A stretch of 64,000 nt of DNA from Chloroflexota bacterium. GTDB taxonomy: Bacteria > Chloroflexota > Dehalococcoidia > Bin125. Numbering within the stretch: the stretch's first letter is position 1; each line of letters starts with the position of its first letter. Location of the stretch: the NCBI GenBank assembly GCA_028874365.1, contig JAPPJZ010000044.1, positions 35,222-99,221 on the forward strand, in the 5' to 3' direction. Under the pieces are notes generated by a model. The model was not told the DNA's origin and ran no database searches. It saw nothing but the letters and a program-made list of their open reading frames with translations. Of this stretch, positions 4,101-40,877 are shown piece after piece. The position numbers and the translations under genes were made by a program.

Positions 4101-4768
4101 CGTTCGACCTCAAGCCGGGCGGCACGGTGGCGCTGGTCGGTCCGTCGGGCGCGGGCAAGACGACGGCTGCTCATTTGCTGCTCCGCTTCTGGGATCCTCA
4201 GGACGGCAAGATCACGCTGGAGGACTCGGACCTGCGCACGTATCGGCTCGATGAGCTACGTGGGCAGGTGGCGCTGGTCGCGCAGGACACGTACCTGTTC
4301 AACGCGTCGATTCGGGCCAACCTCCAGGTGGCGAAGCCGGATGCGACTGAGGACGAACTGCTGCTGGCGATCGAGCGGGCCGGGTTGTCGGATTTCGTTG
4401 AGTCCCTACCGGAAGGGCTCGACACACCGGTCGGTGAGCGCGGCGCGCAGCTCTCGGGCGGGCAGCGTCAGCGCGTCGCGATTGGGCGGGCGCTGCTCAA
4501 GGATGCGCCGGTGCTGATCCTCGACGAGGCCACGTCTCATCTCGACGGCCTGAATGAGCGGCTGGTCCGGGATGCGCTGGACGAGCTGATGTCGGATCGG
4601 ACGACGCTGGTGATCGCGCACCGGCTCTCGACGGTCAGGGACGCGGATCAGATCGTGGTGCTGGACGAGGGTCGGGTGGTCGAGATTGGGAAGCATGAGG
4701 ATCTGGCGTCGGAGGATGGGCTGTATTCGCGGCTGGTGCGTCGGCAGTTGTCGGCGGCTCGACGGTGA
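1172..4768 (+). CDS. Fused double half-transporter ABC exporter (TMD-NBD-TMD-NBD)
   Basis: 1198 residues holding two complete ABC exporter halves in one chain. TMD1 spans about 15-310 and NBD1 about 330-575, with Walker A GRSGSGKST near 367-375, signature LSGGE near 472 and a Walker B ending ILDEA. TMD2 spans about 630-900 and NBD2 about 950-1190, with Walker A GPSGAGKTT near 989, signature LSGGQ near 1094 and ILDEATSHLD. Bacterial exporters of this class are usually two separate half-transporters (CydDC, MsbA-like or multidrug heterodimers), so the fusion gives an obligate pair. The first half looks CydD-like in layout, but the substrate cannot be read from sequence. NBD1 has LILDEALSSVD and NBD2 LILDEATSHLD, so both sites look potentially active. 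The stop lies one base before the next start, which suggests co-transcription with the restriction enzyme. Confidence 0.9.
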   Translation: MTFSWELWQFTQGVRWRIALSVSVGLLAVAAGVARLALLGWMGARIFEGDSFGDLVPLIIATAASIAARSVFLYAKEEVANGTALQVQFSLRQRLFDQVVRLGPSHFDRKRTGDVTVGVIEGVEQLETFFGQYLPQLIVAALAPIGIFIFMGWLDLPVAAIYFGFALVTLVLPQLLKQKNAEASLRRRDAYGSFAADFLDSVQGLATLKAFGQSGRRGAELAERAQVVFRTTMGVLFHNAIAQGLTILAITVGAAVALYVGALRVESGAMELAELLVVLMLGVEVFRPLRELSQLFHQGLLGMAATESVLDIEQAQPLTPDAEAAPTEVVEPRIEFEHVTFSYPTGRRPALEDVSFSVEPGKRIGVVGRSGSGKSTLVWLLQRLYTPQEGTIRLGGRDVNELRFADIRSQMAVVLQDTYLFHGSVLANLRFAKPDATEDEIRAAAEAANAHGFINSLPEGYGTVIGERGHRLSGGERQRIAIARALLRDAPMLILDEALSSVDAENEATIQAALDRLMQGRTTLIMAHRLSSVRDCDEILVLDEGRLVERGDHETLLREGGVYDWLMQGQMTDPSLDGFVDDAPPAERAAAVGASGSLAMRDYGGGATEAIIRAEGMGWRETSARLLAMAAPYWFKTSLSFGTGVAHFFGAIAVGVIGAFMVANVRDGESITLLAALLIVVAVLTGLFRFLENWVSHDMAFRLLADMRIALFRKLDQIAPAYLLRRRSGDLVSMATQDVETVEYFFAHTIANAFVSVVIPGAALITLFVVDWRLGIGLAPLLILAGLSPLFTRRIVDRLGSRSRDHLGALNAHMVDTLQGLREVTAFQREPERKTEFEGLMREYMPIRGGFNRQISAQRTLLEGLTGYGGLAVLTIGGVLAVRGDIDSALAPLLTLLAMGAFMPVAELAQVGRRLGDTLGATRRLTAVHSEPVAVLDGPGASANGGDRDGAGVSEGAFASVGFTYEDTPRAALDEVSFDLKPGGTVALVGPSGAGKTTAAHLLLRFWDPQDGKITLEDSDLRTYRLDELRGQVALVAQDTYLFNASIRANLQVAKPDATEDELLLAIERAGLSDFVESLPEGLDTPVGERGAQLSGGQRQRVAIGRALLKDAPVLILDEATSHLDGLNERLVRDALDELMSDRTTLVIAHRLSTVRDADQIVVLDEGRVVEIGKHEDLASEDGLYSRLVRRQLSAARR

Positions 4769-4769
4769 G

Positions 4770-7679
4770 ATGAGCGGTTCGCTGTCCGCTGCCGAGTTCG
4801 CCGCCAAATGGCGGGAGAACGCCAGGCGTGAGAGCGCCTCTTCGCAGGAACATTTCATCGACCTCTGCCGGCTGCTCAACGTGCCGACGCCTGCTGAAGC
4901 CGACCCTTCGGGCGAGTCCTACACCTTCGAGGCCGGGGTCGAGAAGCTGGGTGGCGGTCAAGGCTGGGCCGACGTGTGGAAGCGCGGGCACTTCGGCTGG
5001 GAGTACAAGGGCAACCGCGCCGACCTGGCCGCCGCCTACCGCCAGTTGCTCGACTACCGCGAGGACCTCGAGAATCCGCCCGCGCTGGTGGTCAGCGACA
5101 TGGATCGGATCGAGGTCCACACCAACTTCACCAACACCCGACCACGGGTGTACGAGATCACACTCGATGGACTCGCGGGCGGCGGGGATACGACTGCGGA
5201 GGCGCTGCGCATCCTGCGCGGCGTGATGGTCGAGCCGGAGGAGCTGCGGCCGCGCCAGACGCCGGACGAAGTCACGCAGGCCGCCGCCTCGCGCTTCGCC
5301 GACCTCGCCCGCTCGATGCAGGAGCGCGGACACGAGCCCGAGACGGTCGCGCACTTCCTCAATCGCGTGCTGTTCTGCCTGTTCGCCGAGGATGTCGGCC
5401 TGCTGCCGCGACGCCTGATGACCGACCTGATCGAATCGCGCACGGACGACCCCGAGGCCTTCACCAGCGGGCTCGCCGATCTCTTCCGGCTGATGTCGGA
5501 CCGCGAGTCGGGGCGATTCTTCGGCACCCAGCGGATCGAGTGGTTCAACGGCGGACTGTTCGACGACGATTCCGTGCTGCCCTTCAACAGCGACGAATTG
5601 CGCACCGTCGCCGACGCCTCCAATCTCGACTGGTCGCAGGTCGAGCCCGCCATCCTCGGCACCCTCTTCGAGCGCGGGCTCGACCCGGACAAGCGCGGAC
5701 AGCTTGGCGCGCACTACACCGACCGCGAGAAGATCCTGATGGTCGTGGAGCCGGTCGTGATGACACCGCTGCGCCGGGAGTTCGCCGCGATGCAGGCATG
5801 CGTCGCTGAACTGATGAAGGATCGCCAGCCCAGCCCGCTCACGCGCGACGGATTGCGTCGCGCCAACCTGCCCAAATGGGAGCGGGACGCAGAGGCCGAG
5901 TGGCGCGGATTCCTCAAGCGCCTGCGCGACGTGCGCGTGCTCGACCCCGCCTGCGGCTCCGGTAACTTCCTGTACGTCACCCTGCGCCTGCTCAAGGACC
6001 TCGAACAGCAGGCCATCCGCTGGGGCGCCGAGCGGCTGCGCATCAGCGGCGAGTTCCCGCGCGTCGACCCGCACAACGTGCTCGGCATCGAGATCAACCC
6101 CTACGCCAAAGAACTGGCCGGCGTCGCCATCTGGATCGGCCATATCCAGTGGATGCTCGACCACGGCTACGGCTTCCCTCGAGACCCCGTCCTGCAACCG
6201 CTCGACAACATCGAACTCCGGGACGCCATCCTCGCCTACGACGAAGAAGGCAAACCCATCCCCGCCACCTGGCCGAATGCCGAGTTCATCGTCGGTAATC
6301 CGCCGTTCTTGGGGACCAAACTGATGAGGTTGTCCTTGGGAGACCATTACGTCGAAGCTCTGTTTGGAGCCTGGCGCGAGGCGGTGGCACAGGAGTCGGA
6401 TCTGGCTTGCTACTGGCACGAAAAGGCACGCGTGCAGATTGCAGCGGGCACGTCAAGACGTGCCGGGCTGCTAGCTACCAACTCAATACGAGGCGGAGCG
6501 AATCGCAGAGTTTTGGACGCTGTAAAGGAGAGCGGAGACATCTTTGTCGCGTGGTCTGATCAGCCGTGGGTCGTGGACGGCGCGGCAGTTCGAGTATCGA
6601 TTGTGGCTCAGGACAATGGAAGTGAAGAGATTCACCTGCTGGACGGCGAGATTGTAGGGGCAATCCACGCGGACTTAAGTGGTGGACTTGACCTCACCAA
6701 TGCCAGGGGTCTTCCCGAGAACGTGGGCATCTCGTACATGGGTGACACAAAGGCAGGGGCCTTCGAGATATCGGGCAAACTCGGCCGCGAAATGCTAAAG
6801 CTCCCTTCTAACATCAATGGTCGGACGAATGCTGACGTTGTCGTTCCTTGGATCAACGGCATGGACATCACGCGGCGACCTCGCGATATGTTCATTGTCG
6901 ACTTCGGCACCAACATGTCGGAGGCGGAAGCTGCCAGTTATGAAGTGCCATTCGAACATGTCAGGGAGCATGTATACCCAGTGCGATCCAACAACAGGCG
7001 AAAGGCCTATAGGGAGCGCTGGTGGATTCACGCCGAGGCTCGGCCCGCTATGCGCGAAGCACTGGCGCCTTTGAAGCGATACATCGGAACCTCAATGGTT
7101 GCGAAGCACAGGGCATTTGTTTGGCTTCACGTGGCAACCAACCCGCACAATGTCGTGATCGTCATCGCCCGAGAAGACGACTACGCCTTCGGCGTACTCC
7201 ACTCTCAAGCTCACGAACTCTGGTCGCTGCGAATGGGCACCTGGCTCGGAGTAGGCAACGACCCCCGCTACACGCCGACCACCACCTTCGAGACATTCCC
7301 TTTCCCCTGGCCACTCAACACGCACGACGACGCCCTGACGCCGGAACAGCACAAGCACCGCGACGCCATCGGCGCGGCAGCCAAGGAGCTGGATGAGAAG
7401 CGGCGGCTCTGGCTCAACCCGCCGGAGTGGGTCCGCGAGGTTGCCGACGTGATCCCTTCGCTGCCGCCGCGTCTGCTGCCGGTCGATGAGGAGGCCGCGG
7501 AGCAACTGAAGCGGCGCACGCTGACCAATCTCTACAACCAGCGGCCGACGTGGCTCGACAACCTGCACCGCACGCTCGATGCTGCGGTCTTTGCGGCCTA
7601 CGGCTGGCCGGCTGATATCGGCGACGAGGAGATGCTGGAGCGGTTGCTCAGTCTCAACCTGGAGCGGGCGTCGGGGTAG
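4770..7679 (+). CDS. MmeI-like type IIL restriction-modification enzyme (nuclease and methyltransferase in one chain)
   Basis: 969 residues from the ATG one base after the ABC stop. The N-terminal nuclease domain has the PD-(D/E)xK arrangement of MmeI: Asp68 in GWADVW, then Glu78 and Lys80 in WEYKG, almost the same numbering as in MmeI. A helical linker leads to an N6-adenine methyltransferase domain with SAM motif DPACGSGN (392-399) and catalytic motif NPPF (510-513). The following ~300 residues should be the target-recognition domain, then a C-terminal helical region. Such enzymes bind one asymmetric site, methylate one strand and cut about 20 bases away; no separate methylase or specificity gene is needed. 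The stretch around 6300-7200, covering the recognition domain, is visibly more AT-rich than its flanks, suggesting domain exchange. Recognition site unknown. Confidence 0.9.
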   Translation: MSGSLSAAEFAAKWRENARRESASSQEHFIDLCRLLNVPTPAEADPSGESYTFEAGVEKLGGGQGWADVWKRGHFGWEYKGNRADLAAAYRQLLDYREDLENPPALVVSDMDRIEVHTNFTNTRPRVYEITLDGLAGGGDTTAEALRILRGVMVEPEELRPRQTPDEVTQAAASRFADLARSMQERGHEPETVAHFLNRVLFCLFAEDVGLLPRRLMTDLIESRTDDPEAFTSGLADLFRLMSDRESGRFFGTQRIEWFNGGLFDDDSVLPFNSDELRTVADASNLDWSQVEPAILGTLFERGLDPDKRGQLGAHYTDREKILMVVEPVVMTPLRREFAAMQACVAELMKDRQPSPLTRDGLRRANLPKWERDAEAEWRGFLKRLRDVRVLDPACGSGNFLYVTLRLLKDLEQQAIRWGAERLRISGEFPRVDPHNVLGIEINPYAKELAGVAIWIGHIQWMLDHGYGFPRDPVLQPLDNIELRDAILAYDEEGKPIPATWPNAEFIVGNPPFLGTKLMRLSLGDHYVEALFGAWREAVAQESDLACYWHEKARVQIAAGTSRRAGLLATNSIRGGANRRVLDAVKESGDIFVAWSDQPWVVDGAAVRVSIVAQDNGSEEIHLLDGEIVGAIHADLSGGLDLTNARGLPENVGISYMGDTKAGAFEISGKLGREMLKLPSNINGRTNADVVVPWINGMDITRRPRDMFIVDFGTNMSEAEAASYEVPFEHVREHVYPVRSNNRRKAYRERWWIHAEARPAMREALAPLKRYIGTSMVAKHRAFVWLHVATNPHNVVIVIAREDDYAFGVLHSQAHELWSLRMGTWLGVGNDPRYTPTTTFETFPFPWPLNTHDDALTPEQHKHRDAIGAAAKELDEKRRLWLNPPEWVREVADVIPSLPPRLLPVDEEAAEQLKRRTLTNLYNQRPTWLDNLHRTLDAAVFAAYGWPADIGDEEMLERLLSLNLERASG

Positions 7680-14942: not shown

Positions 14943-16559
14943 ATGGAATTGCTATTCACCGGTGGACGAGTGTTGACGATCGATGCCATGGATCGGATCG
15001 CCTCCGGTGTCGCGGTGCGCGACGGGAGGATCGTGGCGGTCGGCGACAGCGCCGACGTTCACAATGCAGTCGGCCCCGATGCCACTCACGTCGATCTGCG
15101 CGGTCGCGCACTTGTACCGGGGTTCTGCGACCCGCACAATCACTTCTCGATGACTACGTTTGAGCCGCGCTCGGTCGACTGCCGCAGGCCGCCACTGGCG
15201 AGCAAGTCGGCGGTGCTCGACGCAATCGCGGCGGCCGCGTCCGGCAGCCCCGCCGGACAGTGGATCTGGGGGCTGGGCTTCTCGCAGAGCGAACCGGGCA
15301 TCGTGACCGACGACATGCTGTTTCGCGATGAGCTGGACGAGGTCGCTCCGAACAACCCGGTGTGTGTGATGGATTCGTCGTATCACGCCTGCTACGCCAA
15401 CTCGGCTGCGCTGGCGATGGTGGGGATCGACCGCGACACGCCCGATCCGCGGGGTGGGAACATCCTGCACGACGACAGCGGGGAGCCGAACGGCGTGCTC
15501 TGGGAGCGGGCGATGGACCCGGTTCATCACGCGACGATGCGTTCGTACATCGACACGTTCGGTCCCGACGTGGTGGCCGGACTGGTGGAACAGAACGCCC
15601 TGCGCCATCTTTCGCACGGGATCACGAGCGTCGGCGACGCCCTGGTGATGCCCGAGAGCGCGGAGATCTACCGGCTGACCGACGAGCGCGGACGGTTGCC
15701 GATCGCGATTCACCAGATGCGCGGCGGCCCCGGATTCTTCGCGGCGCCCGAGGACGCTGCTGCCGGCGCCTACATGGACGATGACGTCTCCGACCGCCTG
15801 CGCGGCGGGATTGTCAAGATCTTCATGGATCCGGTCTGGCCCTCTCCAGCAATGGAGCTCTGCCATCCCGACGGCACGACCGAGCCGGTCGGCGAGCCGT
15901 ACTACGGGCAGGAGGAAGTCGACCACCTGGTGCTCGATGCGGCGTCGCACGGACTGCAGGTGGCGATTCACTGCATCGGCAACCGGGCGGTGGAACAGGG
16001 GTTGAACGAATTCGAGCGCGCGCTGCGCGAGACCCCCGGCGACGATCGCCGCTTCCGGATTGAACACTTCATGTTCGCCACGAGTGAGCAGATCGAGCGT
16101 GCGCAGTCGCTCGGGGTGATGATCTCGCACCAGCCGCCGTTCCTGCATTTGCTTGGCGACTATTTTGAGCAGGCCACCGCTCAGCCGGGGATTGACGCGG
16201 TTCCGATGCCGTATCGCTCGATGTTGGATGCTGGCGTCCACGTGGCATCAGGGTCCGATTTCCCCTGTGCGCCGGTGCCTCCTCTACTTGGCCTGTATGG
16301 ACTGACCACGCGAACGTCGCGCGATGGCACGGTGATTGCCGCCGACGAGGCGATCCATCCGCTGGAGGCGCTGCGCACGTACACGCTCAACTCGGCCGCG
16401 GCGATGTTCCGCGACCACGAGGTGGGCTCAGTCGAGGTCGGGAAGCGCGCCGATCTTGCGGTGCTGAGCCACGATCCGACGCTCGTTGACTCGACCTACA
16501 TCCGCGAGATCGTAGTGCAGCAGACGTACGTGGACGGGGAGTTGCTGTACTCGGTCTAG
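14943..16559 (+). CDS. Amidohydrolase family 3 (YtcJ type), copy A
   Basis: 538 residues, a normal length for YtcJ-like metal-dependent hydrolases. It has an N-terminal beta-sandwich start (FTGGRVLTID), the metal motif DPHNHF with His65 and His67, further ligand regions IHQMRGG and AIHCIGNRA with a conserved His, EHFMFA, and a late SGSDFPCAP with the metal-binding Asp. The C-terminus closes the sandwich (VEVGKRADLAVLSHDP). Enzymes of this group hydrolyse amide or related C-N bonds in cyclic or acyl amides. No signal peptide. It is closely similar along its length to copy B at 22248, and a third decayed 3' end lies at 19785. Its stop shares CTAG with the convergent methyltransferase. The substrate may be whatever the neighbouring permeases import (inference). 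Confidence 0.88.
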   Translation: MELLFTGGRVLTIDAMDRIASGVAVRDGRIVAVGDSADVHNAVGPDATHVDLRGRALVPGFCDPHNHFSMTTFEPRSVDCRRPPLASKSAVLDAIAAAASGSPAGQWIWGLGFSQSEPGIVTDDMLFRDELDEVAPNNPVCVMDSSYHACYANSAALAMVGIDRDTPDPRGGNILHDDSGEPNGVLWERAMDPVHHATMRSYIDTFGPDVVAGLVEQNALRHLSHGITSVGDALVMPESAEIYRLTDERGRLPIAIHQMRGGPGFFAAPEDAAAGAYMDDDVSDRLRGGIVKIFMDPVWPSPAMELCHPDGTTEPVGEPYYGQEEVDHLVLDAASHGLQVAIHCIGNRAVEQGLNEFERALRETPGDDRRFRIEHFMFATSEQIERAQSLGVMISHQPPFLHLLGDYFEQATAQPGIDAVPMPYRSMLDAGVHVASGSDFPCAPVPPLLGLYGLTTRTSRDGTVIAADEAIHPLEALRTYTLNSAAAMFRDHEVGSVEVGKRADLAVLSHDPTLVDSTYIREIVVQQTYVDGELLYSV

Positions 16560-17572
16560 GGGGTTGGTTTGCGGGCGTGGACGAGGAAGCTGGGGGTGAA
16601 GATTTCCAGTTCGCCGGCTTCGACCAGGGCATCGGCGGCGATGTTGAGGAACGTGGCGGTCTCGCCGGTGCCCGCCGGGACGATGCGCAGCAGCTCGAGG
16701 AACTTCGTCACTGTCTCCGTGAAGCGCCGTCCAGTCGGAGTTCGGGCCCATGAAGACAGCGAGAAATCGCGTCCCTGGAGCGCCATGTACCACGGGGTTA
16801 GCGGGTTGCCGTTCTCGGCCTGCTGATCGATCGCCTGGATGATCTCGAAGCCGGCCTGTTGAACGGTCTCTACCTGTTGCCCCGTGGTGAGCAGGTCCGG
16901 CGTCGCGTTATTGGTCTCGATGCGTCTGCGAAGGTCCTGATGACGGGCGTCGTTGGCGTCGAACTTGTCGGTGAAGCACCAATCGACGATGGCGATCTCG
17001 CCGCCGGGCTTGACCAGGCGGTACAGCTCCTGGAAGAGGAGCAGGTTGTTGGGGGCGTGACAGACCGCCTCGAAGGAATAGATGGCGTCGAATGTCTCAT
17101 CTTCCAGCGGTACGTCCATGAAGTTGGCATAGAGGAACTGGCAGGTGTCGTTGAGGCCCGCCTTGGCTACGAATCGCTCGCCTCGGGCGATCTGCAAGGG
17201 GCTGAAGTTGATCCCAGTGATGCTGGCGCCGGTGGCTTGCGCAATGGTGATCATTGGCCCGGCGACGCCGCAACCGATGTCTGCGACTTTCATGCCCGGT
17301 TTGAGACGCAGGATCTCGCCGATCTCGCGGTCGTGCCGTCGTTGAGACTCGGCGAGGTTCTCCCCGGGACGACGCGGCGAGAAGTGGAAGGTGGTGCCCC
17401 AGCCGAACTCGTAGAACCGCGTGACGGCGTCGTAGAAGCGGCTGACGAGTTTCGGCTGCTGCTCGATCCGGGCGGCGTCCTCCTGCGATTCGCTCAGTTG
17501 CTGAATCTGGTGGTAGTCGCGCAGTGCCTGGCGAGGATTGCCGCTGCGTTGTTCGTCTACGTCAGTTGGCAC
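16556..17572 (-). CDS. Sterol C-24 methyltransferase (Erg6/SMT)-like SAM methyltransferase
   Basis: 338 residues with the full layout of sterol C-24 methyltransferases. The SMT-specific aromatic motif YEFGWG lies at 54-59 and is followed by TFHFS. The SAM motif ADIGCGVAGP is at 97-106, the region-III motif EAVCHAP at 168-174 and the region-IV motif DWCFTDKFD at 197-205. The C-terminal part carries PWYMALQG and ends with the SMT-like LFTP-type stretch (IFTPSFLVHARKP). These four regions distinguish SMTs from ordinary class I methyltransferases. SMTs transfer methyl from SAM to C-24 of a sterol side chain. No other sterol gene is in this window, so the true substrate could be another isoprenoid. 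It is convergent with amidohydrolase A and lies inside the duplicated permease module, absent from the second copy. Confidence 0.85.
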   Translation of the reverse strand: MPTDVDEQRSGNPRQALRDYHQIQQLSESQEDAARIEQQPKLVSRFYDAVTRFYEFGWGTTFHFSPRRPGENLAESQRRHDREIGEILRLKPGMKVADIGCGVAGPMITIAQATGASITGINFSPLQIARGERFVAKAGLNDTCQFLYANFMDVPLEDETFDAIYSFEAVCHAPNNLLLFQELYRLVKPGGEIAIVDWCFTDKFDANDARHQDLRRRIETNNATPDLLTTGQQVETVQQAGFEIIQAIDQQAENGNPLTPWYMALQGRDFSLSSWARTPTGRRFTETVTKFLELLRIVPAGTGETATFLNIAADALVEAGELEIFTPSFLVHARKPTP

Positions 17573-17618
17573 GGCGTCACCTGGCCTCTCAGAAGGCGCC
17601 CGGAATCTGCGGTCTGTA

Positions 17619-17912
17619 TCAGCCGTCGTAGCCGTCGACGACGACGAGTTGTGACGTCAACGCTCGGTGGCGAAGCTCGTCGAGAGATCGAAAGTCGTCG
17701 GACTCGATGAATGCGACGGCAGCGTCACGGCTGTCGAACTCCATGATCACGAGTCGCTCGGGCGACCAATCACCTTCGAGCACCGCGACGTTGCCGCCCC
17801 GCACGAGGAAGCGGCCGCCGTGTGCGGCGAGGGCCTCGCCAACCGGTCCGACGAATTCCGAGAATGCCTCCTGGTCGATCACTTCGTTGTCGATGACGAC
17901 GTAGCCCTTCAT
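17619..17912 (-). CDS. DUF1330 family protein, copy 1
   Basis: 97 residues, the usual size of this dimeric alpha/beta-barrel (ferredoxin-like) family. Starts MKGYVVIDNEV; family core FLVRGGNVAVLEGDWSPERLVIMEF with the conserved Arg and Glu. The ribosome site AGAGGAAAGG precedes the ATG. It lies 75 bases downstream of the NCS2-type permease at 17988 on the same strand, so the two probably share a transcript. The family has no firm biochemical role; in catabolic clusters it is often a small accessory or isomerase-like protein. A paralogue of the same length lies at 19945. Confidence 0.85.
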   Translation of the reverse strand: MKGYVVIDNEVIDQEAFSEFVGPVGEALAAHGGRFLVRGGNVAVLEGDWSPERLVIMEFDSRDAAVAFIESDDFRSLDELRHRALTSQLVVVDGYDG

Positions 17913-17987
17913 GGCAGCCTTTCCTCTCGTGTGAACCCGCGCGGCCGTTGCGTAGGGTAACTGGCGGGGATGTTGCGGCGGGCGGAG

Positions 17988-19724
17988 TCATTTGCGCGTT
18001 CCCTCAACTTCGACCGTCACGATGTCGATGCCGTAGTACTTGCGATGCCGGACGGCGCTGGCATAGAGGCCGAGCAGGCGGAACGAGAGATCGTTCACCT
18101 CGGGCGTCTCGGTCTGCTCACTGATGTACGCGATTCGATCCTCAATGTTCTCCTCGGAGAAGAGGGCGAGGAACTCCAGCTCCACCGAACCGGAGCCCGG
18201 ACGCGCGTTGAGCACGACGCGCGGGGGCTGCTCGGCCTCGTGGTCCTCGCGCAACTGCATCATCGCCGAGAGGGTCTCCTCGCCGGCGGCGTGCAGACGG
18301 TCGATTGATGCCTGGTTCCATCGCAGACCGGAGCCGAGTTTGCGCAGGAAGGCCTCGATGTCGGGCAGGGCCGACAGGTCGAGGACCGTCTCCAGCCGCC
18401 GACGCCGCGCGCCGGTCAGTTCCAGCACGAGGGTCAGCAGGACCGCGAGCAACACGCCGACGAGTACGCCGTTGCTCAGCACACCGACCCAGGCGCCGCC
18501 GATGGAGTCCAGCAAGCCGGTCTGACTCTGCAGGCCGAAGCAGGCCGCGAGCGGCAGACCGGCGATGAACGCGCGCTGCCGGTTGAGCCCCTCGCGTGTC
18601 ACGCTGCGCATGCCCTCGGCGAAGAGCAACCCCATGATCACCATGAGCAACGCTCCGCTGACCGGACGGGGGATGGTGAGCAGCATGGCCACCGCCTTGG
18701 GCAGCAGCGCCAGTACGACCAGGATGACGCCCATGACGATGCCGACTCGCCGCGAGGCCACCCCGGTGAAGCTGAACAGGGGGAGCGTCGAGGCCGTGTA
18801 GGGGATCGCGGGCGGGGTACCCGCCAGTCCGGAGCACAGCACGGCCACACCGCAGACGTTGAGCGTGCGCTGCACGCCGCGGAAGTCGACGGTCCGAGGT
18901 ATGCGCACGGAGGCCTGCTGAATCGTGGCGCTCTCGCCGCTGGCTCGGACGGAGAGCACGAGATTGATAATGAGGAAGACGAGCAGCAAGGCCCAGAAGT
19001 CCTCGCTCAAGACCGAGGCGAAGCCGGGCCAGCCGCCGACCTCGGGCAGATCCATCCAGGCAGCGTCCCGAACTCGTTGCACGTCGTAGACACCGAGCGC
19101 TACCGCCACGATGCAGCCGCCGACGGTGGCGATCGGCAGCGCCCAGAGGCTCCAGAGGCCGGTCCCGCGCAAGATCAGCAACGCCGTCAGAGCCAGGGTC
19201 GCCAGGCCCACTGCAGGTCCGGCGATGTCGGAAGCGCCTTCAGGTACGTCGTTCAGCCGCTCGAGCGCGATCGGCATCGCCGTGAGCGCGATCATCATCA
19301 ACGCGGCGCCGGAGACGACCGGCGTTATCAGGCGCCTCAGGCGCGCCAGCCAGGCGGCGACGGCGAACTGGATCAGCGATGAGACCACGACCAGGCTCGA
19401 CATCAACGCCAGGCCGCCCGCTTCGACGGCGAGCACGCAGACGGCAAGAAAGGTGACGCCCGGACCCAGCATCAGGAGGTGGCCCGGCCCGACTCGACCC
19501 AGCCGCGACGCGTGTAGCGCCGTGGCGAGCCCGGCGACGATCAGCGAGCCAACGATCGCCCAGGCGGCGTAGCTGCCATCGTCGTTGAAGGCCGCAGAGA
19601 AAATCACCACGAACGTGACCGTGGTCGTGACGGCGAGGACTGCGCCCTGAAAGGCCACGTTGAGCGTCAAGAGCCGCGGCGCCGGCTCGTCCGGTTCGTA
19701 GCGGATGTGCTCGTTCGCCGCCAT
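17988..19724 (-). CDS. NCS2-type (xanthine/uracil family) permease with C-terminal cytosolic domain, copy 1
   Basis: 578 residues. Residues about 20-430 contain some 12-14 hydrophobic segments in the NCS2/nucleobase-ascorbate transporter pattern, including GPGHLLMLGPGV, the loop LCSGLAGTPPAIPYTAST in the substrate-site position, and RRVGIVMG. Residues about 440-575 form a soluble tail (DIEAFLRKLG, RLHAAGEETLSAM, VVLNARPG, RHRKYYGIDIVTVEV). Its order of elements recalls RsbW/HATPase-like regulatory domains but with no intact N-box or glycine-rich ATP lid. Ordinary NCS2 carriers are about 430-460 residues and lack such a tail. Transport by proton or sodium symport of a purine, pyrimidine or similar heterocycle is expected; the substrate is not certain. 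It lies upstream of the DUF1330 gene. Confidence 0.78.
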   Translation of the reverse strand: MAANEHIRYEPDEPAPRLLTLNVAFQGAVLAVTTTVTFVVIFSAAFNDDGSYAAWAIVGSLIVAGLATALHASRLGRVGPGHLLMLGPGVTFLAVCVLAVEAGGLALMSSLVVVSSLIQFAVAAWLARLRRLITPVVSGAALMMIALTAMPIALERLNDVPEGASDIAGPAVGLATLALTALLILRGTGLWSLWALPIATVGGCIVAVALGVYDVQRVRDAAWMDLPEVGGWPGFASVLSEDFWALLLVFLIINLVLSVRASGESATIQQASVRIPRTVDFRGVQRTLNVCGVAVLCSGLAGTPPAIPYTASTLPLFSFTGVASRRVGIVMGVILVVLALLPKAVAMLLTIPRPVSGALLMVIMGLLFAEGMRSVTREGLNRQRAFIAGLPLAACFGLQSQTGLLDSIGGAWVGVLSNGVLVGVLLAVLLTLVLELTGARRRRLETVLDLSALPDIEAFLRKLGSGLRWNQASIDRLHAAGEETLSAMMQLREDHEAEQPPRVVLNARPGSGSVELEFLALFSEENIEDRIAYISEQTETPEVNDLSFRLLGLYASAVRHRKYYGIDIVTVEVEGTRK

Positions 19725-19784
19725 CTCGTTCGACCCGTGATTTGTCAGCTGTCGCCGTCAGCCGGTGGCTGCGTTCCAGTGCAG

Positions 19785-19886
19785 GTGCTGCCGGCCTCTG
19801 ATCCGAGGCTGGTCGGCATGATCTGGACTCGCGAGATCGTAGTGCAACGGACCTTCGCGGGTGGGGAGCTGCTGTACTCGGTGTGA
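19785..19886 (+). pseudogene. Decayed 3' end of a third YtcJ-type amidohydrolase
   Basis: About 34 codons in one frame encode the C-terminus of the neighbouring amidohydrolases: SDPRLV, then REIVVQ and GELLYSV followed by TGA at 19884-19886. Copy A has HDPTLV, REIVVQ and GELLYSV. Seventeen bases (CGCGAGATCGTAGTGCA) are identical to copy A. No amidohydrolase sequence remains upstream; the permease start lies only 60 bases away. It occupies the place, relative to permease copy 1, that intact copy B occupies relative to permease copy 2. The simplest reading is a tandem duplication followed by loss of nearly all of the middle amidohydrolase. Confidence 0.82.
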
Positions 19887-19944
19887 TTGCCCGTTCGTTG
19901 CGGGAGGACAGCTCAGGGTGTCGTAGCAGGAACGCGCAGGTGCT

Positions 19945-20238
19945 CTAGCCTTTGAAGCCGGCGGCCACCACGACGCTTGATCGCACCGCCCGCAGGCGAA
20001 GCTGATCGAGCGCTGTGTACTGGGTTGAGCGGACAAATTCGGCGGCGCCGTCGTCGCTGTCGAAGCTCATGATCACGAGGCGCTGCGGCGTCCAGTCGCC
20101 CTCAATGACATCCAGGTCGCTGCCTCGCACCAGGAACGTGCCGCCCCGAGCGATGACGGCATCGTAGATCTTCACTGCGAACTCTGAGAACGCGTCCTCG
20201 TCGATCACTTCGGTGTCGATGACCAGGTAGCTACTCAT
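19945..20238 (-). CDS. DUF1330 family protein, copy 2
   Basis: 97 residues from the ATG at 20238, which has AGAGAGG ten bases upstream; an in-frame ATG at 20262 would add eight residues and lacks such a site. Length and core (FLVRGSDLDVIEGDWTPQRLVIMSF) match copy 1 at 17619. It lies 77 bases downstream of permease copy 2, the same spacing as in copy 1 (75 bases). This conserved pairing suggests that the small protein works with the permease or with the compound it imports. Confidence 0.85.
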   Translation of the reverse strand: MSSYLVIDTEVIDEDAFSEFAVKIYDAVIARGGTFLVRGSDLDVIEGDWTPQRLVIMSFDSDDGAAEFVRSTQYTALDQLRLRAVRSSVVVAAGFKG

Positions 20239-20315
20239 CTCGGCGAGTCCTCTCTGCTGCATCAGGGCTCGTTGCCCGGTGTTGAACTGATGAGATCACA
20301 AACGGGTCGCATTCA

Positions 20316-22052
20316 CTATCGCGAACCCTCGACCTCGACCGTCACGATATCAACACCGTAGTACTTGCGATGCCGCACCGACGACGCATAGAAGCGCAAC
20401 AAGCGGAACGAGATGTCGCCTACGTCTGGCTCCTCGGCCTGCTCGCTCAGGTATGCGACGCGGTCCTCAAGGTTCTCTTCGGAGAACAGCGCAAGAAACT
20501 CCAGCTCGACCGATTCACCGCCGGGTCGTGCGATCAGCACGAGCCGGGGCGGCTCGTCTGACTCGTAGTCGTCGCGCAGGTTCAGCATGGCTGAAAGTGT
20601 TTCCTCGCCGGCCGCGTGCAGACGGTCGATCGATTGCTGGTTCCAACGCAAATCGGCGCCGAGCTTGCGCAGGAACGCCTCGATCTCGGGCAAGGCCGAT
20701 ACGTCGAGTTCAGTTTCCAGACGCCGTGGCCGAGGACGGGAACCGGCGAGCTCGAGCACCACGGTCATCAGCACGGCGGCGGACACCCCGAAGACAACGC
20801 CATTGCCGAGCGTCGCTCCCCAGGTGCCGCCGATCACGTCGGCCAGGATGTTCTGGCTCTGAAGGCCGACTGCGATCGAGAGCGAGGTCCCGACAATCGC
20901 CGCTCGCTGGCGGTTGAGTCCGTCTCGCAAGACGGTGCGCATGCCTTCGACGAACAGCAGCCCCATGATCACCAACAACAACGCGCCGCTGACGGGTCGT
21001 GGAATCGTGAGCAGCATCGCGACGATCTTGGGCAGCAAGGCGGCCACGACCAGCATCACGCCGATCGTGATCCCGACGCGCCGGGCCGCGACGCCGGTGA
21101 ACTGGAACAGCGAAATGGTCGACGGGAGGTAGGCGATCGTCGGCGGCGTTCCGGCGATCCCGGAGAGTAGGATGGCGATCCCGCCCACATTCAGGGTCCG
21201 CTGCACCCCGCGAAAGTCGATGCTGCGGGGCTCGCGCCGGGAGGCTTGTTGGATCGCTGCTCCCTCGCTGCTGGAGCGGACCGCGACGACCGCGCTGACG
21301 ACGAGGAAGACCAGCAACAGGGCCCAGAAATCCTCGTCGAGCACCGAGCCGAATCCGGGCCAGCCGGCGACCTGGGGCAGGTCGAACCAGGGCGCGTCGA
21401 TCGCTCGTTGGATGTCGTACACGCCCAGCGGCACCGCGATCGCACAGCCTCCGATCAGTGCGATCGGCAGGGCCCAGAGGCGCCAGAGTCCGGTCCCGAG
21501 CAGCATCAGCAGCGCGGTGATGGCCAAGGTCGCCACTCCCACGCCAGGACCGGCCGCGTCGCTGACGCCCGCGGGGACGTCGTTGAGCCGTGCGAGCGCA
21601 ATCGGCATGGCGGAGAGGGCAATCATCATGAAGGCGACGCCGGAGACGACCGGCGTGATCAATCGGCGTAGCTGGGCGAGGCGAGCGGCCACGACGAACT
21701 GGATCAACGAGGACGCGATCACGAGGCTCGACATCAACGCCAGTCCGCCCTGTTCCACCGCTAGCACGCAGGCCGCCAGAAAGGGGACGCCGGAACCCAT
21801 CAGGAGGACGTGTCCCGGTCCCAGGCGGCCAATCTTCGAGGCGTGCAGCGCCGTGGAGACGCCGGCCACGATCAGCGCGCCGACGATGGCCCAGGCCATG
21901 TAACTACCGTCGTCGTTGAACGCCGCCGAGAAGATGACCACGAACGTGACCACGTTGGAGACGATCAGGACCATGCCCTGAACGGCAACGTTGAGCGTCA
22001 GCAGCGGCGGAACAGGCTCGTCCGGTTCGCAGCGGATGTGGTCGTTGGCCAC
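20316..22052 (-). CDS. NCS2-type permease with C-terminal cytosolic domain, copy 2
   Basis: 578 residues, exactly the length of copy 1 and alignable from end to end with it (HIRCEPDEPVPPLLTLNV against HIRYEPDEPAPRLLTLNV). The same membrane pattern, substrate-loop region GIAGTPPTIAYLPST and soluble tail are present (about 440-578; RLHAAGEETLSAM, RHRKYYGVDIVTVEV). The tail is well conserved between the copies, so it is probably under selection. The gene diverges from amidohydrolase B across a 195-base gap, and is followed by DUF1330 copy 2. Probably imports the same class of compound as copy 1, perhaps with different specificity. Confidence 0.78.
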   Translation of the reverse strand: MANDHIRCEPDEPVPPLLTLNVAVQGMVLIVSNVVTFVVIFSAAFNDDGSYMAWAIVGALIVAGVSTALHASKIGRLGPGHVLLMGSGVPFLAACVLAVEQGGLALMSSLVIASSLIQFVVAARLAQLRRLITPVVSGVAFMMIALSAMPIALARLNDVPAGVSDAAGPGVGVATLAITALLMLLGTGLWRLWALPIALIGGCAIAVPLGVYDIQRAIDAPWFDLPQVAGWPGFGSVLDEDFWALLLVFLVVSAVVAVRSSSEGAAIQQASRREPRSIDFRGVQRTLNVGGIAILLSGIAGTPPTIAYLPSTISLFQFTGVAARRVGITIGVMLVVAALLPKIVAMLLTIPRPVSGALLLVIMGLLFVEGMRTVLRDGLNRQRAAIVGTSLSIAVGLQSQNILADVIGGTWGATLGNGVVFGVSAAVLMTVVLELAGSRPRPRRLETELDVSALPEIEAFLRKLGADLRWNQQSIDRLHAAGEETLSAMLNLRDDYESDEPPRLVLIARPGGESVELEFLALFSEENLEDRVAYLSEQAEEPDVGDISFRLLRFYASSVRHRKYYGVDIVTVEVEGSR

Positions 22053-22123
22053 TGCCGTCGCCTGTCCAGTACCTCTCCGGCAGCGGCAATCAATCCGAGA
22101 GTTTGCATCCGCCGGGAACGAGC

Positions 22124-22247
22124 GCGGTTCGCTTCTCGGAACCGAACCGCCGCATCAGGCTACGGCCTTGGACCGGGAGTCACGGCGTCGCGGAGCAGGT
22201 TCGTTAGCCTCTGACGGATCCAGAGTCCGTTCTACGAGGAGGCCGAG
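22124..22247 (+). promoter_or_regulatory. Divergent control region and leader of amidohydrolase B
   Basis: Contains the inverted repeat GCGGTTCG (22124-22131) / CGAACCGC (22143-22150), the CGTTAGCCTC box shared with copy A (22202-22211), a short inverted repeat ACGGA/TCCGT (22214-22230) just after it, and GAGGAGG (22236-22242) before the ATG. The repeats are plausible operator or leader structures for the divergent permease and amidohydrolase genes. Confidence 0.45.
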
Positions 22248-23855
22248 ATGGAACAGTTGTTCACCGGTGGTCGGGTACTGACGATGGACGGACTCGATCG
22301 AATCGCGTCAGGAGTCGCCGTGCGCGACGGCAAGATCATCGCGGTCGGCGACAGCGATGAGGTACGGAGGCAAGTCGGCCCCGAGGCGACTCACGTTGAC
22401 CTGCGCGGCCGCGCATTGATTCCCGGCTTCTGCGATCCGCACAACCACTTCTCGATGACGACGTTCGAGCCGCGCTCGGTCGATTGCCGGATCCCGCCTC
22501 TGGCCGGCAAACCGGCAGTGCTCGACGCCATCGCCGCCGCGGCGGAAGCCGCTCCCATTGGCCAGTGGGTCTGGGGGCTCGGTTACAGCGCCCGACACGC
22601 CAACGGCGGCTGGCTGACGCGGGACGAACTGGACGACGTGGCGCCCGACAATCCGATCTGTGTGATGGACTACTCCTACCACGCCAGTTACGCCAACTCG
22701 GCCGCGATGTCGATCGCCGGGATCAACTTCGAAACGCCCGATCCGCGCGGCGGCCAGATCTTGCGCGACGAGAGTGGCGAGGCGACAGGGATGCTCTATG
22801 AGCGGGCTTCGGATCTCGTGCATCAGGCGTCGATGCGCGCGCACATCGACACGCTCGGTCCGGAGATCGTGGCCGACTTGGTAGAGCAGAACGCGCTGCG
22901 TCACCTCTCGCACGGTGTGACCAGCGTCGGCGACGCGGTCGTGATGCCGGAGAGCGCCGAGATGTACCGCTACGCGGACGACCGCGGCAAGCTGCCGATC
23001 GTGATCCACCAGATGCGCGGCGGCAACGGCTTCTTCGCGGCGCCCGAGGCCGCCGCCAATGGCGCATTCCTGCAGGACGACGTCTCCGATCGGCTGCGTG
23101 GGGGGATCGTGAAGCTGTTCATGGACCCGGTGTATCCATCGAACGCGCTGCGCAAGTGCCACGCCGACGGCACGTTCGAGGATGTCGGCGAGCCCTACTA
23201 CAACCAGGACGAGGTCGATCAGCTCGTGCTCAACGCGGCCTCGCACGGGCTGCAGACGGCGATTCACTGTCTTGGCAACCGCGCGATCGAGCAGGCGCTC
23301 AATACCTACGAGCGCGTCCAGCGCGAGATCCCTCGCAGCGACGCCCGCTACCGGATCGAGCACTTCTTCTTCGCCGACCCGGGCCAGATGGAGCGCGCCG
23401 CCTCGCTGGGCGTGATCATCTCGCACCAGCCTGCCTTCCTCTACTCAGTCGGGCAGGGCTTCGTCGACTTCATCGCCGAGGCCGGCCTGACGATCCCGCC
23501 GCTGCCCTACCGCTCGTTCCTCGACGCGGGCGTCACGGTGGCCTCCGGTTCCGACTTCCCCTGCGCGCCGGTCGAGCCGCTGATTGGGCTGTACGGCCTC
23601 ACCGCTCGCCGCTCTCGGGAGGGTGACGTCATCGCGGAGGAAGAGACGCTCTCAGCACTCGAAGCGTTGCGCACGCAGACGATCAACTCGGCGGTCGCGA
23701 TGTTCCGCGACGATGAGGTTGGTTCGATTGAGGTCGGCAAGCGGGCTGATTTGGTCGTGCTGAGTCATGATCCAACGCTCGTCGATCCGGAGTCGATTCG
23801 CGACATCGTGGTGCAGCAGACGTATGTGGATGGGAAGTTGTTGTATTCGGTCTAG
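22248..23855 (+). CDS. Amidohydrolase family 3 (YtcJ type), copy B
   Basis: 535 residues, a close paralogue of copy A at 14943: same start (FTGGRVLTMD), metal motif DPHNHF, AIHCLGNRA, EHFFFA, SGSDFPCAP and C-terminus (VEVGKRADLVVLSHDP, ending LLYSV). The full metal set appears intact. It hydrolyses an unknown amide-type bond; the divergent permease at 20316 may deliver the substrate. GAGGAGG precedes the ATG. The stop shares CTAG (23852-23855) with the convergent VOC gene, the same arrangement as copy A with its neighbour. Differences from copy A cluster around residues 95-110 and 395-415, near loops that could set specificity. Confidence 0.88.
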   Translation: MEQLFTGGRVLTMDGLDRIASGVAVRDGKIIAVGDSDEVRRQVGPEATHVDLRGRALIPGFCDPHNHFSMTTFEPRSVDCRIPPLAGKPAVLDAIAAAAEAAPIGQWVWGLGYSARHANGGWLTRDELDDVAPDNPICVMDYSYHASYANSAAMSIAGINFETPDPRGGQILRDESGEATGMLYERASDLVHQASMRAHIDTLGPEIVADLVEQNALRHLSHGVTSVGDAVVMPESAEMYRYADDRGKLPIVIHQMRGGNGFFAAPEAAANGAFLQDDVSDRLRGGIVKLFMDPVYPSNALRKCHADGTFEDVGEPYYNQDEVDQLVLNAASHGLQTAIHCLGNRAIEQALNTYERVQREIPRSDARYRIEHFFFADPGQMERAASLGVIISHQPAFLYSVGQGFVDFIAEAGLTIPPLPYRSFLDAGVTVASGSDFPCAPVEPLIGLYGLTARRSREGDVIAEEETLSALEALRTQTINSAVAMFRDDEVGSIEVGKRADLVVLSHDPTLVDPESIRDIVVQQTYVDGKLLYSV

Positions 23856-38242: not shown

Positions 38243-39274
38243 ATGGCTGATGCAGTGGCGAATCGTCCGCGAGGCGTGCACCTGGTTGGGAGCGTGCCGC
38301 TGGCCGACAGCGAGGCAGTCTTCCGCGAAGTTTCCGCGAGAGTCGGAGACCGGCTACGGCGTCTGCCGGACGGCGAGACCGGAATCCGGACCAACTGGAT
38401 CCAATGGCAATTCCCACTCTTGCTGGAGGTTCCCGAGTTCGAGTCGGCCGATGAACGGCCAGGCCCGTTCGGAGCGCGGTTGCAACTCCGAGAAGACGTG
38501 ACCGCCGAGCAAATCAGGTTTCCCGAACTTGGTTATCGGGCGGCGGCCATCGAATCGTATGACGTGTTCTCGCGCCTGAAGCGCGAAGGCGTAATCGGAG
38601 CAGCTGTACGTTTCCAGGTCTGCCTGCCGACGCCGCTCGCTGTCATCCATATCCGCTTCATCCCGCGCGACCAGGAAGAAGTTGAACAGGCCTACGAACA
38701 GCAGTTGCTCGAAGAGTTGGACGGCATGCTCGATGTCATCCCGCACGACGAGTTGGCGGTTCAGTGGGATACGGCGGTTGAGTTTGCGATCCTCGAAGGA
38801 TTGCTGCATTCGTTCCTGTCTGACCCGGTAGCCGACATCATCGAGCGGCTGGTGCGGCTCGGGAATCGCGTGCCGGTCGGTGTCGAAACGGGATATCACC
38901 TTTGCTACGGCGATGTGGAACATCAACACTTCGTCGAGCCAGCCGACACGACGAAGGTCGTGGCGGTCGCCAATGGCGTGTGTGCGGGCGTCGAGCGGTC
39001 AGTCAATTGGATGCATATGCCCGTCCCGCGAGGCCGTAACGACGACGGGTACTTCGCCCCGCTCAGCGATCTGCAACTACAGGCTGAGACCGAGCTCTAC
39101 CTCGGACTTGTGCATCTGACCGATGGCGTCGATGGCACTGAGGAGCGCATCGCCGCCGCAAGACGGGCGGTTCCGGAGTTTGGCGTCGCGACGGAGTGCG
39201 GCTTCGGACGGCGACCGGCGGAGACGATTCCCGCTTTGCTGGATGTCCACGCGGGCGTGGCGGATCCGCTCTGA
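38243..39274 (+). CDS. MetE/UROD-superfamily protein (cobalamin-independent methionine synthase-like)
   Basis: 343 residues from the ATG at 38243, seven bases after AAGGAG. It begins GVHLVGSVPLADSE and RLPDGETGIRTNWI. The zinc-site motifs of MetE can be matched: H219-x-C221 in GYHLCYGD (MetE has HMCY) and Cys319 in TECGFGRR. The Glu ligand is not obvious. MetE itself is over 700 residues with two barrels; this is a single barrel, so it may transfer a methyl group from a different donor or to a different thiol. It diverges from the Rieske gene. Confidence 0.7.
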   Translation: MADAVANRPRGVHLVGSVPLADSEAVFREVSARVGDRLRRLPDGETGIRTNWIQWQFPLLLEVPEFESADERPGPFGARLQLREDVTAEQIRFPELGYRAAAIESYDVFSRLKREGVIGAAVRFQVCLPTPLAVIHIRFIPRDQEEVEQAYEQQLLEELDGMLDVIPHDELAVQWDTAVEFAILEGLLHSFLSDPVADIIERLVRLGNRVPVGVETGYHLCYGDVEHQHFVEPADTTKVVAVANGVCAGVERSVNWMHMPVPRGRNDDGYFAPLSDLQLQAETELYLGLVHLTDGVDGTEERIAAARRAVPEFGVATECGFGRRPAETIPALLDVHAGVADPL

Positions 39275-39293
39275 AGCAGCGAGGAATGGTTCC

Positions 39294-39557
39294 GTGGCTG
39301 AACGAAGGTCTCGGCTTTCCCGCCCGATCGAGCCGATGCCGTCAGTGGTGGAAGACGCATTGATCGACAGCGGGTTGATGGACGCGTATCGCGGTCGGCC
39401 TGACTACCAGCGAAACGATTACCTGGGCTGGATCAATCGGGCCAAGCGTCCGGAGACGAAGGAGCGCCGCCTACAGCAGATGCTGTCCGAGTTAGAGCGC
39501 GGCGATGTCTACATGAAGATGGATTGGAGCCCGGGCCGAGTCTCACGCTCCGAATAG
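39294..39557 (+). CDS. Small YdeI-like C-terminal domain protein
   Basis: 87 residues from a GTG with GAGGAA upstream, 19 bases after the MetE-like gene. The stretch RNDYLGWINRAKRPETKERRLQQMLSEL matches the Arg/Lys-rich C-terminal helical module of YdeI/OmdA-type proteins (YLxWIxxAKRPETRxxR), without the usual N-terminal domain. It may be a stand-alone domain or the leftover of a longer gene. Function unknown. Confidence 0.6.
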   Translation: MAERRSRLSRPIEPMPSVVEDALIDSGLMDAYRGRPDYQRNDYLGWINRAKRPETKERRLQQMLSELERGDVYMKMDWSPGRVSRSE

Positions 39558-39628
39558 GGGGTGGGTGCCCGTTGCGAAATCGATAGATTTGAACGCAGCA
39601 GGAGTTTCGCGCTGTTGGAGGGGACGCC

Positions 39629-40006
39629 ATGCCGTTGCAGCTCGATCACACCATCGTGCCGGCCTACGACAAGGAGCGGTCGGCGAGGTTCATTGCCCGG
39701 ATGTTTGGTCTGTCGTACGAAGGGACCTGGGGTCACTTCGCCCCGGTCAAGATCAACGACACGCTGACGCTGGACTTCGACCACTCGGACAACCCCGGCT
39801 CGAACCACTACGCCTTCCTGGCGTCGGACGAGGAGTTCGACGAGATCCTGCAGCGGGTCAAGGAAGAGGGCATCGCCTTCGGCAGCGGTCCAGGCTCACG
39901 GACGGATGGCGAGATCAACCATCGACACCAGGGTCGTGGCTTCTACTTCGACTGCGAGAACGGCCACGTGTGGGAAGTGATCACCCACACGTACATCACG
40001 GACTAG
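39629..40006 (+). CDS. VOC-superfamily (glyoxalase-like) protein
   Basis: 125 residues, ATG preceded by GGAGGGG. Single VOC module: LDHTIVPAYD (first metal His), FARM-like FIARMFGLSYEG, NHYAFLASDEEFDEIL (second His), GRGFYFDCENGHVWEVITH (Glu near the end). With a full ligand set it could be a metal-dependent isomerase, dioxygenase or a resistance-type binding protein. Cytoplasmic. Context gives no substrate. Confidence 0.83.
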   Translation: MPLQLDHTIVPAYDKERSARFIARMFGLSYEGTWGHFAPVKINDTLTLDFDHSDNPGSNHYAFLASDEEFDEILQRVKEEGIAFGSGPGSRTDGEINHRHQGRGFYFDCENGHVWEVITHTYITD

Positions 40007-40013
40007 CCCGCGG

Positions 40014-40877
40014 TTAATCGGCTGTTTCCTCGTAGCCCCGATCGCGTTCGCGCTTGAACGCGGCCCAGCCCTGCTCTTCGCGGACTCGCTGGCGGCCTAT
40101 TCCCACCGCGTCCTCTGCCTGCGACAACTCGCGCAACGCTTCGTTGTCGCGGTAGCGGACCGCGTCGATCAGGCCCATCTGTTCGTAGACCATGTTGACC
40201 AGGCGTTTGTTGAGCCCCACGACCGAGGGCGGGAGGGCGGCGAGCTTGCGCGCCATCTCGTTGGCGGCGTCTTCGAGTTGGTCGTCGGGTACGACTCGGT
40301 TGACCAGGCCCATGCGGTGCGCATCGTCGGCGGTGATGACTTCGCCGAGCATCACCACTTCCTTGGCCAGCTTCTGGTTGGTGAGGAAGGGCGTGATCAA
40401 CACGGGAATGCCGAAGCCGTGTCGGATCTGGATCTCGCCGAAGCGGGCGTTGTCCGAGGCGATCGTCAGGTCGCAGACGCCCGCGAGTTCGCAGCCCTGG
40501 CCGACGGCGTGGCCGCGCACGGCGGCGATGACCGGCTTGGGGAACGACCAGATCCGCATCTGCACATCGATTGAGTCGGGTGCCGGGTCGTTGTCCGGGT
40601 AGAGCGAGGCCCAGAGGTCGCCGCCGGCCGAGAAGGCGCGGCCCGCGCCGGTCAGGATGACGGCGCGCACATCGTCGTCGGCTTCGGCTTTGTCGAGGGC
40701 GGCGTCGAGCAGACGAGTCACGTTTCGGTTGATCGCGTTGAGTACGAGCGGCCGATTCAACGTGATCCGGGCGATGCCATCCACAGCCTCGTAGAGCACG
40801 TCGTAGGGCGAGGGTGGTGGAATCGGGATGCCGTCGGGCGTCTGCTTCCAGGTCGAGGTGTCCGGTTCGGTCGTCAT
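40014..40877 (-). CDS. Enoyl-CoA hydratase/isomerase (crotonase) family
   Basis: 287 residues from the ATG at 40877, which has GGAGG upstream; in-frame sequence further up to 41237 is Arg-rich antisense noise. Crotonase features are ITLNRPLVLNAIN, the oxyanion-hole stretches AGRAFSAGGDL and GHAVGQGCELAGVCDLTIAS, and FGEIQIRHGFG. One catalytic Glu of the hydratase type is not clearly in place, so isomerase, hydrolase or decarboxylase activity is possible. Acts on acyl-CoA in the cytoplasm; fits with the CoA-transferases in the window. Confidence 0.88.
   Translation of the reverse strand: MTTEPDTSTWKQTPDGIPIPPPSPYDVLYEAVDGIARITLNRPLVLNAINRNVTRLLDAALDKAEADDDVRAVILTGAGRAFSAGGDLWASLYPDNDPAPDSIDVQMRIWSFPKPVIAAVRGHAVGQGCELAGVCDLTIASDNARFGEIQIRHGFGIPVLITPFLTNQKLAKEVVMLGEVITADDAHRMGLVNRVVPDDQLEDAANEMARKLAALPPSVVGLNKRLVNMVYEQMGLIDAVRYRDNEALRELSQAEDAVGIGRQRVREEQGWAAFKRERDRGYEETAD

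Follow-up and report, generated by a model that had tools for sequence, protein, structure and literature searches.

A predicted sterol C-24 methyltransferase encoded apart from the sterol gene cluster of a Chloroflexota bacterium

On what substrate does a sterol methyltransferase (SMT) homologue act when its gene lies among catabolic genes of a bacterium? The question is raised by a stretch of 64,000 nucleotides, hereafter the window, from a Chloroflexota bacterium (Dehalococcoidia, Bin125; assembly GCA_028874365.1, contig JAPPJZ010000044.1, here C14:35222-99221), whose genome is in 82 contigs, 96.1% complete and 2.31% contaminated. It bears on the geological record, where steranes with a 24-alkyl or 26-methyl group are taken as fossil evidence of eukaryotes and sponges. 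We consider it probable that the gene encodes a member of the sterol C-24 methyltransferase family, one that would place a methyl group from S-adenosylmethionine (SAM) on the side-chain double bond of a sterol predicted to be of the cell's own making. The gene and the landmarks of its product are the following.

16556..17572, minus strand: SMT-family methyltransferase gene, 338 aa, GTG start (single open reading frame, Pfam, motifs and protein search)
17396..17413, minus strand: Region I YEFGWG, residues 54-59 (motif reading of the translation)
17255..17284, minus strand: SAM-binding motif ADIGCGVAGP, residues 97-106 (motif reading)
17051..17071, minus strand: Region III EAVCHAP, residues 168-174, including the nearly invariant Glu168 (alignment)
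16958..16984, minus strand: Region IV DWCFTDKFD, residues 197-205 (motif reading)
16565..16756, minus strand: Sterol_MT_C domain, residues 273-336 (Pfam, 75 bits, cut-off 21.7)

The four SMT regions and the SMT-type C-terminus claimed by the first-pass annotation were all located: the motifs stand alongside the C-terminal stretch FTPSFLVHARKP, and the protein ends in FTPSFLVHARKPTP. The domain score, set against its cut-off, and the lack of any match to the same Pfam model in 14 control genomes indicate that the Sterol_MT_C match is not due to chance. General methyltransferase Pfam models also match the protein, and among the best 25 of the 31 matching NCBIfam models none reached its cut-off. 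The YExGWG motif, put forward as a hallmark of SMTs, is present as YEFGWG but is not fixed even among the closest relatives: it differs in five of the 11 full-length genes of this clade (hereafter window-type) in the genus, reading YVFGWG in four and FEFGWG in one.

A protein search with the window SMT returned 379 proteins at E <= 1e-3 among 3933 candidates. Among the 120 matches listed, identity is at least 60%, two (P0046 and P0049) lack a precomputed Sterol_MT_C domain, and those with an organism name come from Chloroflexi/Chloroflexota or Gammaproteobacteria. Among 21 loci in named genomes, the five close ones (L008-L012) belong to Chloroflexota metagenome-assembled genomes (MAGs), whose sample codes we take to denote Ircinia and Rhopaloeides sponges; the bacterium is likely a sponge dweller or symbiont. 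Pairwise dN/dS values between the window SMT and six orthologues range from 0.09 to 0.16, values that point to purifying selection.

The statement that no squalene monooxygenase or cyclase is present is true of the window, but not of the genome. The genome-wide search proposed at the time, for squalene monooxygenase, oxidosqualene cyclase and CYP51, finds all three on contig C58, and a further cyclase and squalene-synthase-type genes lie on C59.

C58:34550-35722, opposite strand, facing the sterol cluster: second SMT
C58:35750-39244 (L029:15750-19244): squalene monooxygenase/oxidosqualene cyclase (SMO-OSC) fusion, 1164 aa, a single frame spanning the squalene epoxidase and the two cyclase domains
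C58 about 39103-40491: CYP51, adjoining the fusion; CYP51 chains rank first among its PDB matches (358 bits)
C58:40527-41567, on a strand common with the fusion, CYP51 and the SdmA-like gene: ERG24 (243 bits)
C58:41614-42723, same strand: SdmA-like Rieske gene (394 bits to the SdmA model, below its cut-off of 600)
C59: cyclase of hopene-cyclase size, 647 aa, separate from the fusion
C59: two squalene-synthase-type genes

The cyclase half of the fusion scores 765 bits against the oxidosqualene cyclase model (cut-off 851) and 282 bits against the hopene cyclase model (cut-off 431), and carries the motifs MTGARS and HGWPVSDCTAE; by what we take to be the landmark residues, its agreement with the lanosterol and cycloartenol patterns is incomplete in both cases. 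Genome-wide matches to squalene epoxidase, cyclase, ERG24 and squalene synthase fall on C58, C59 and C9; a second ERG4/24-family gene, on C9, has no sterol neighbour recognised by eye. Sterol_MT_C matches occur at four sites, on C14 (the window), C58, C73 and C17. Because the genome holds a fused SMO-OSC together with CYP51, ERG24 and an SdmA-like Rieske gene, a self-made sterol is the likeliest substrate. The first reading, in which a sterol (made or scavenged) or a related isoprenoid is methylated, thus narrows towards a made sterol, and scavenging, weakened by the fusion, is no longer the first choice.

The start codon of the fusion is likely downstream of the first ~17 residues, where five relatives carry TGA. 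That these internal TGA codons break the fusion was considered and rejected: in the five relatives checked, each of them precedes the FAD motif and falls no later than aligned residue 17. Beyond the cluster, C58 carries a KshA-type Rieske gene, a fusion of GPP34 (Golgi phosphoprotein 3) and cytochrome P450 domains, an amine-oxidase-type flavoprotein gene and, near the sterol genes, an MMPL gene whose product has a sterol-sensing domain (50 bits; L030:11912-14395 = C58:51912-54395). A 244-aa protein that is hydrophobic by eye and has no Pfam match at 1e-3 is encoded beside the cluster (L030:4035-4769, C58:44035-44769).

The co-occurrence of these genes extends to the genus: 13 of its 15 genomes, the window's own included, carry the SMT domain (all but G007 and G012), as do 25 of 400 genomes drawn from the phylum, three of the 25 within the genus; the earlier remark that bacterial SMTs are rare does not hold here. 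The SMO-OSC fusion is matched in 12 of the 15 genomes (not in G002, G006 or G012; partial in G003 and G007). Window-type SMTs occur in nine, and the fusion in eight of these; G002, the exception, retains SdmA, ERG24 and a 123-residue part of CYP51. In G010, assembled in about 10 contigs, a window-type SMT with a Rieske gene (C4:222710-223992) shares a contig of 494,844 bp with the fusion (C4:451451-454942), so that the link between SMT and sterol genes is no binning error there. A complementary distribution of cluster-linked and window-type SMTs was considered and dropped: the 12 genomes with a fusion comprise six with the window type only, three with the cluster type only, two with both and one with neither (one-sided Fisher p ~0.15, not significant).

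A second line of evidence comes from the gene that accompanies the window-type SMT in relatives. The nine genomes hold 12 window-type loci, one of them an 89-aa fragment, and in seven (G002, G003, G009, G010, G011:C4, G011:C16 and G014) a KshA-type Rieske gene lies directly downstream on the same strand. The two genes overlap by 4 nt in four of these loci and are 6 nt apart in two; in G010 the Rieske match starts on the last base of the SMT. Two further loci hold damaged pairs (G011:C25, with 41 Rieske residues, and G004:C22, with an SMT fragment and a Rieske gene in two frames), and three lack the Rieske gene (the window, G004:C20 and G013:C16). The KshA_C assignment is based on four scanned Rieske proteins: two of the seven partners, a third partner and a paralogue encoded nearby. 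The Rieske Cys/His pattern and an H192/H197 pair are invariant in seven aligned Rieske proteins, and the nearest solved relatives of the partner are the 3-ketosteroid 9alpha-hydroxylases KshA (PDB 4qdc, 2zyl). The partner gene is absent from the window, where the corresponding position reads as follows; its best match elsewhere in the genome, on C58, is 29% identical.

16556..16559, no strand: junction where seven of the 12 loci carry the KshA-type Rieske gene; in the window the stop codons of the SMT and of a convergent amidohydrolase gene overlap
14943..16559, plus strand: Amidohydro_3 protein, the convergent neighbour, given for context and outside sterol function

The low dN/dS suggests that the window SMT is in use despite the missing partner. 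The pair itself is found in at least three different surroundings; in G010 and G011:C16 it stands without amidohydrolase, permease or PhyH genes. The description of the SMT as part of a catabolic cluster accordingly fits the window's neighbours, but not these two loci, where the SMT lies elsewhere with the Rieske gene alone beside it. A related arrangement was seen in another Chloroflexota family (f88, genome G137): at L187:7553-11185, a KshA-type Rieske gene (42% identical), an SMT gene (52% to the C58 SMT) and an ERG4/ERG24-family gene (421 bits) form a trio on one strand.

These observations are compatible with a pathway in which C58 enzymes would epoxidise and cyclise squalene and then perform C-14 and C-4 demethylation. 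A delta-24 sterol, or a 24-alkylidene sterol delivered by another SMT, would enter the window enzyme, which would transfer a methyl group from SAM to the side-chain double bond and generate a side-chain carbocation resolved by proton loss. A carbocation followed by proton loss is the usual chemistry of SMTs. In relatives, oxidation or desaturation of the sterol nucleus by the partner Rieske protein would follow; the SMT of the window genome has been kept without this partner. The bacterium is thus predicted, from its gene content, to make alkylated sterols like those used as eukaryote and sponge fossil markers.

Several observations weigh against this reading. The first concern phylogeny, for which two trees of 75 and 39 rows were built, eukaryotic SMT rows included. 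The remote outgroups tried in the 75-row tree gave branches of 5-7 and placed one row inside the SMTs; they were superseded in the 39-row tree, which was rooted on RebM, MitM, TleD and sarcosine/dimethylglycine methyltransferase (partial rows). The best tree groups the window protein with eukaryotic and other bacterial SMTs, as the first-pass annotation would have it, and not with RebM and MitM; a branch whose support (87/94) falls short of the tool's star separates the 35 SMT rows from the four outgroup rows. In both trees, separate clades are formed by the cluster-linked (C58) SMTs, the window-type SMTs, the C17/C73 type, a G005 and G008 pair and the eukaryotic rows. The window-type stem measures 1.19 in the 75-row tree and 0.37 in the 39-row tree, and the C17/C73 stem 0.38 and 1.2, respectively. 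As the long stem moves between trees, stem lengths are not reliable support; it is nevertheless possible that the window-type clade has shifted its substrate, the stem of 1.19 pointing that way in one of two trees that are not stable.

The fold of the window protein is likewise common to many small-molecule methyltransferases. Among the comparison rows shown, its neighbours are MitM, SpnF, AtmM, TleD, RebM, cyclopropane synthases and terpenyl C-methyltransferases, with no SMT structure. PDB 6f5z, named 24-sterol C-methyltransferase, matches weakly (2e-6), and an Erg6 query retrieved no PDB chain at 1e-20. Hence the fold does not decide the substrate. As to gene context, 11 sterol queries gave no match at 1e-10 in the flanks C14:15222-35221 and 99222-115000, and it is the C58 paralogue, not the window gene, that adjoins ERG24, CYP51 and the cyclase; an SMT is already present in that cluster. 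In the control set of 14 genomes, two match the Pfam model of squalene epoxidase, two that of the cyclase and seven SQS_PSY. Such matches alone therefore prove little, and the case is made by the fusion together with the genes beside it. Finally, the KshA-type Rieske gene may belong to catabolism; in G005 and G008 (L199, L200) it stands beside PhyH and amidohydrolase genes with no SMT.

The strongest rival, though rather improbable, is that the window SMT alkylates sterols taken from a sponge or other eukaryotic host. SMTs do occur without the core cluster in the phylum: in 27 SMT-bearing genomes outside the genus the fusion is found in none, its cyclase half alone is matched in 22 (29-36% identity) and five lack even that match at 1e-10. 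One can presume that SMTs in these fusion-less genomes would act on acquired sterols, and the C58 gene for a transporter with a sterol-sensing domain could be read in the same sense. However, window-type SMTs are confined to the genus among the classed Chloroflexota hits (26 of 35 non-genus hits), and the fusion accompanies them in all genomes but G002, which keeps part of the pathway. A still less probable alternative is that the protein, though of SMT descent, has come to methylate a non-sterol isoprenoid or a hopanoid-type lipid. The long stem in the 75-row tree (not in the 39-row tree), the distance of the gene from the sterol cluster, the hopene-cyclase-type gene on C59 and the resemblance of the fold to terpenyl-diphosphate C-methyltransferases would fit this alternative; retention of all four motifs and of Sterol_MT_C, the steroid hydroxylases nearest to the relatives' partner and the co-occurrence with the fusion argue against it. 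That the SMT acts on a growth substrate, as part of a catabolic island (PhyH, amidohydrolases, purine-type permeases, CoA transferases), is very unlikely: the island is kept around the SMT in G002, G009, G011 and G014 and its genes adjoin the SMT-less Rieske gene of G005 and G008, but the pair dispenses with it in G010 and G011:C16, and no steroid-ring degradation gene was recognised among 14 window neighbours scanned with Pfam.

Related systems have been described. In one report, SMTs from sponge metagenomes and other MAGs are active in vitro, three of them (a Chlamydiae MAG enzyme and two found in Aplysina aerophoba metagenomes) yield 24-isopropyl sterols, and a Sandaracinus MAG cluster holds two functional SMTs; a fused SMO/OSC is mentioned in its methods, and 26-methylation is left open (PMC10070321). 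Those enzymes are, like the present one, bacterial, with SMT domains and in part within sterol gene clusters; the window-type clade would be set apart by being unlinked to the cluster and Rieske-paired in relatives. The C58 layout resembles the ERG24-CYP51-LSS clusters described for Ircinia MAGs, Dehalococcoidia included, in which the SMT is often on the opposite strand; unlike in those clusters, the window SMT lies outside, and additional SMT copies with a Rieske gene are not part of the available description (PMC9531527). The msb locus of a gammaproteobacterial Melophlus symbiont, which includes an NAD(P) oxidoreductase, shares with C58 a Rieske gene, an ERG24-type reductase, a CYP51-type demethylase, an SMO-cyclase fusion and an SMT; the locus has a single SMT, and the available text describes no SMT-KshA pair (PMC7074536). 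As far as these sources go, bacterial SMTs, including two in one genome, and a sterol cluster in sponge Dehalococcoidia are thus known already (PMC10070321, PMC9531527, PMC7074536).

Yeast Erg6 and plant SMT1/SMT2 share Regions I-IV and the C-terminal domain with the window SMT, and the bacterial clades stand apart from these eukaryotic rows in both trees. In the literature searched by titles and abstract openings, no description of a KshA-type Rieske gene as the partner of an SMT gene, or of four SMTs in one bacterium, was recognised; within that scope, the Rieske pairing of the window-type clade and the SMT copy number were not found described. The pair is a concrete candidate for a bacterial sterol tailoring step, and a genome with sterol core genes and four SMTs from different clades constitutes a defined enzyme set, testable singly and in pairs. 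It is conceivable, if quite improbable, that the four SMTs act in series on the bacterium's own sterols and build side chains credited to sponges, 26-methyl ones included, the 26-methyltransferase being sought between the window-type SMT with its KshA-type Rieske gene and the Met-variant C17/C73 clade.

The C17 and C73 SMTs share 58.5% identity, against 32-35% with the window protein. Both (L031:7092-8132 and L032:5222-6259) replace the Region I tyrosine by Met (LMQFGWN, FMVFGWS), as do rows of this type wherever the motif pattern matched, three rows being unmatched. Outside the genus, a P450 match lies beside the SMT in 12 of 16 C17/C73-type loci (not in L123, L124, L125 and L183), and no such match was found in seven loci of the genus (L114-L120). 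Six of the 16 (L121, L122, L188, L194, L195 and L197) have near the SMT both a KshA-type Rieske gene and a gene for an MMPL protein that contains a sterol-sensing domain, and in all five of these six that were scanned the P450 is a GPP34-P450 fusion. The fusion gene faces the C17-type SMT in five loci of other genera or families, and the C73 SMT also lies near one. Such fusions were noted at L030:9815-11893, L031:4366-6375, L121:9064-11091, L188:6433-8502, L194:1805-3901, L195:9169-11193 and L197:8888-10921.

Two minor features of the window may be added. Positions 14943-23855 hold a duplicated pair, with two Amidohydro_3 and two Xan_ur_permease genes and the SMT between the copies, and positions 4686-7679 encode an MmeI-like restriction-modification protein.

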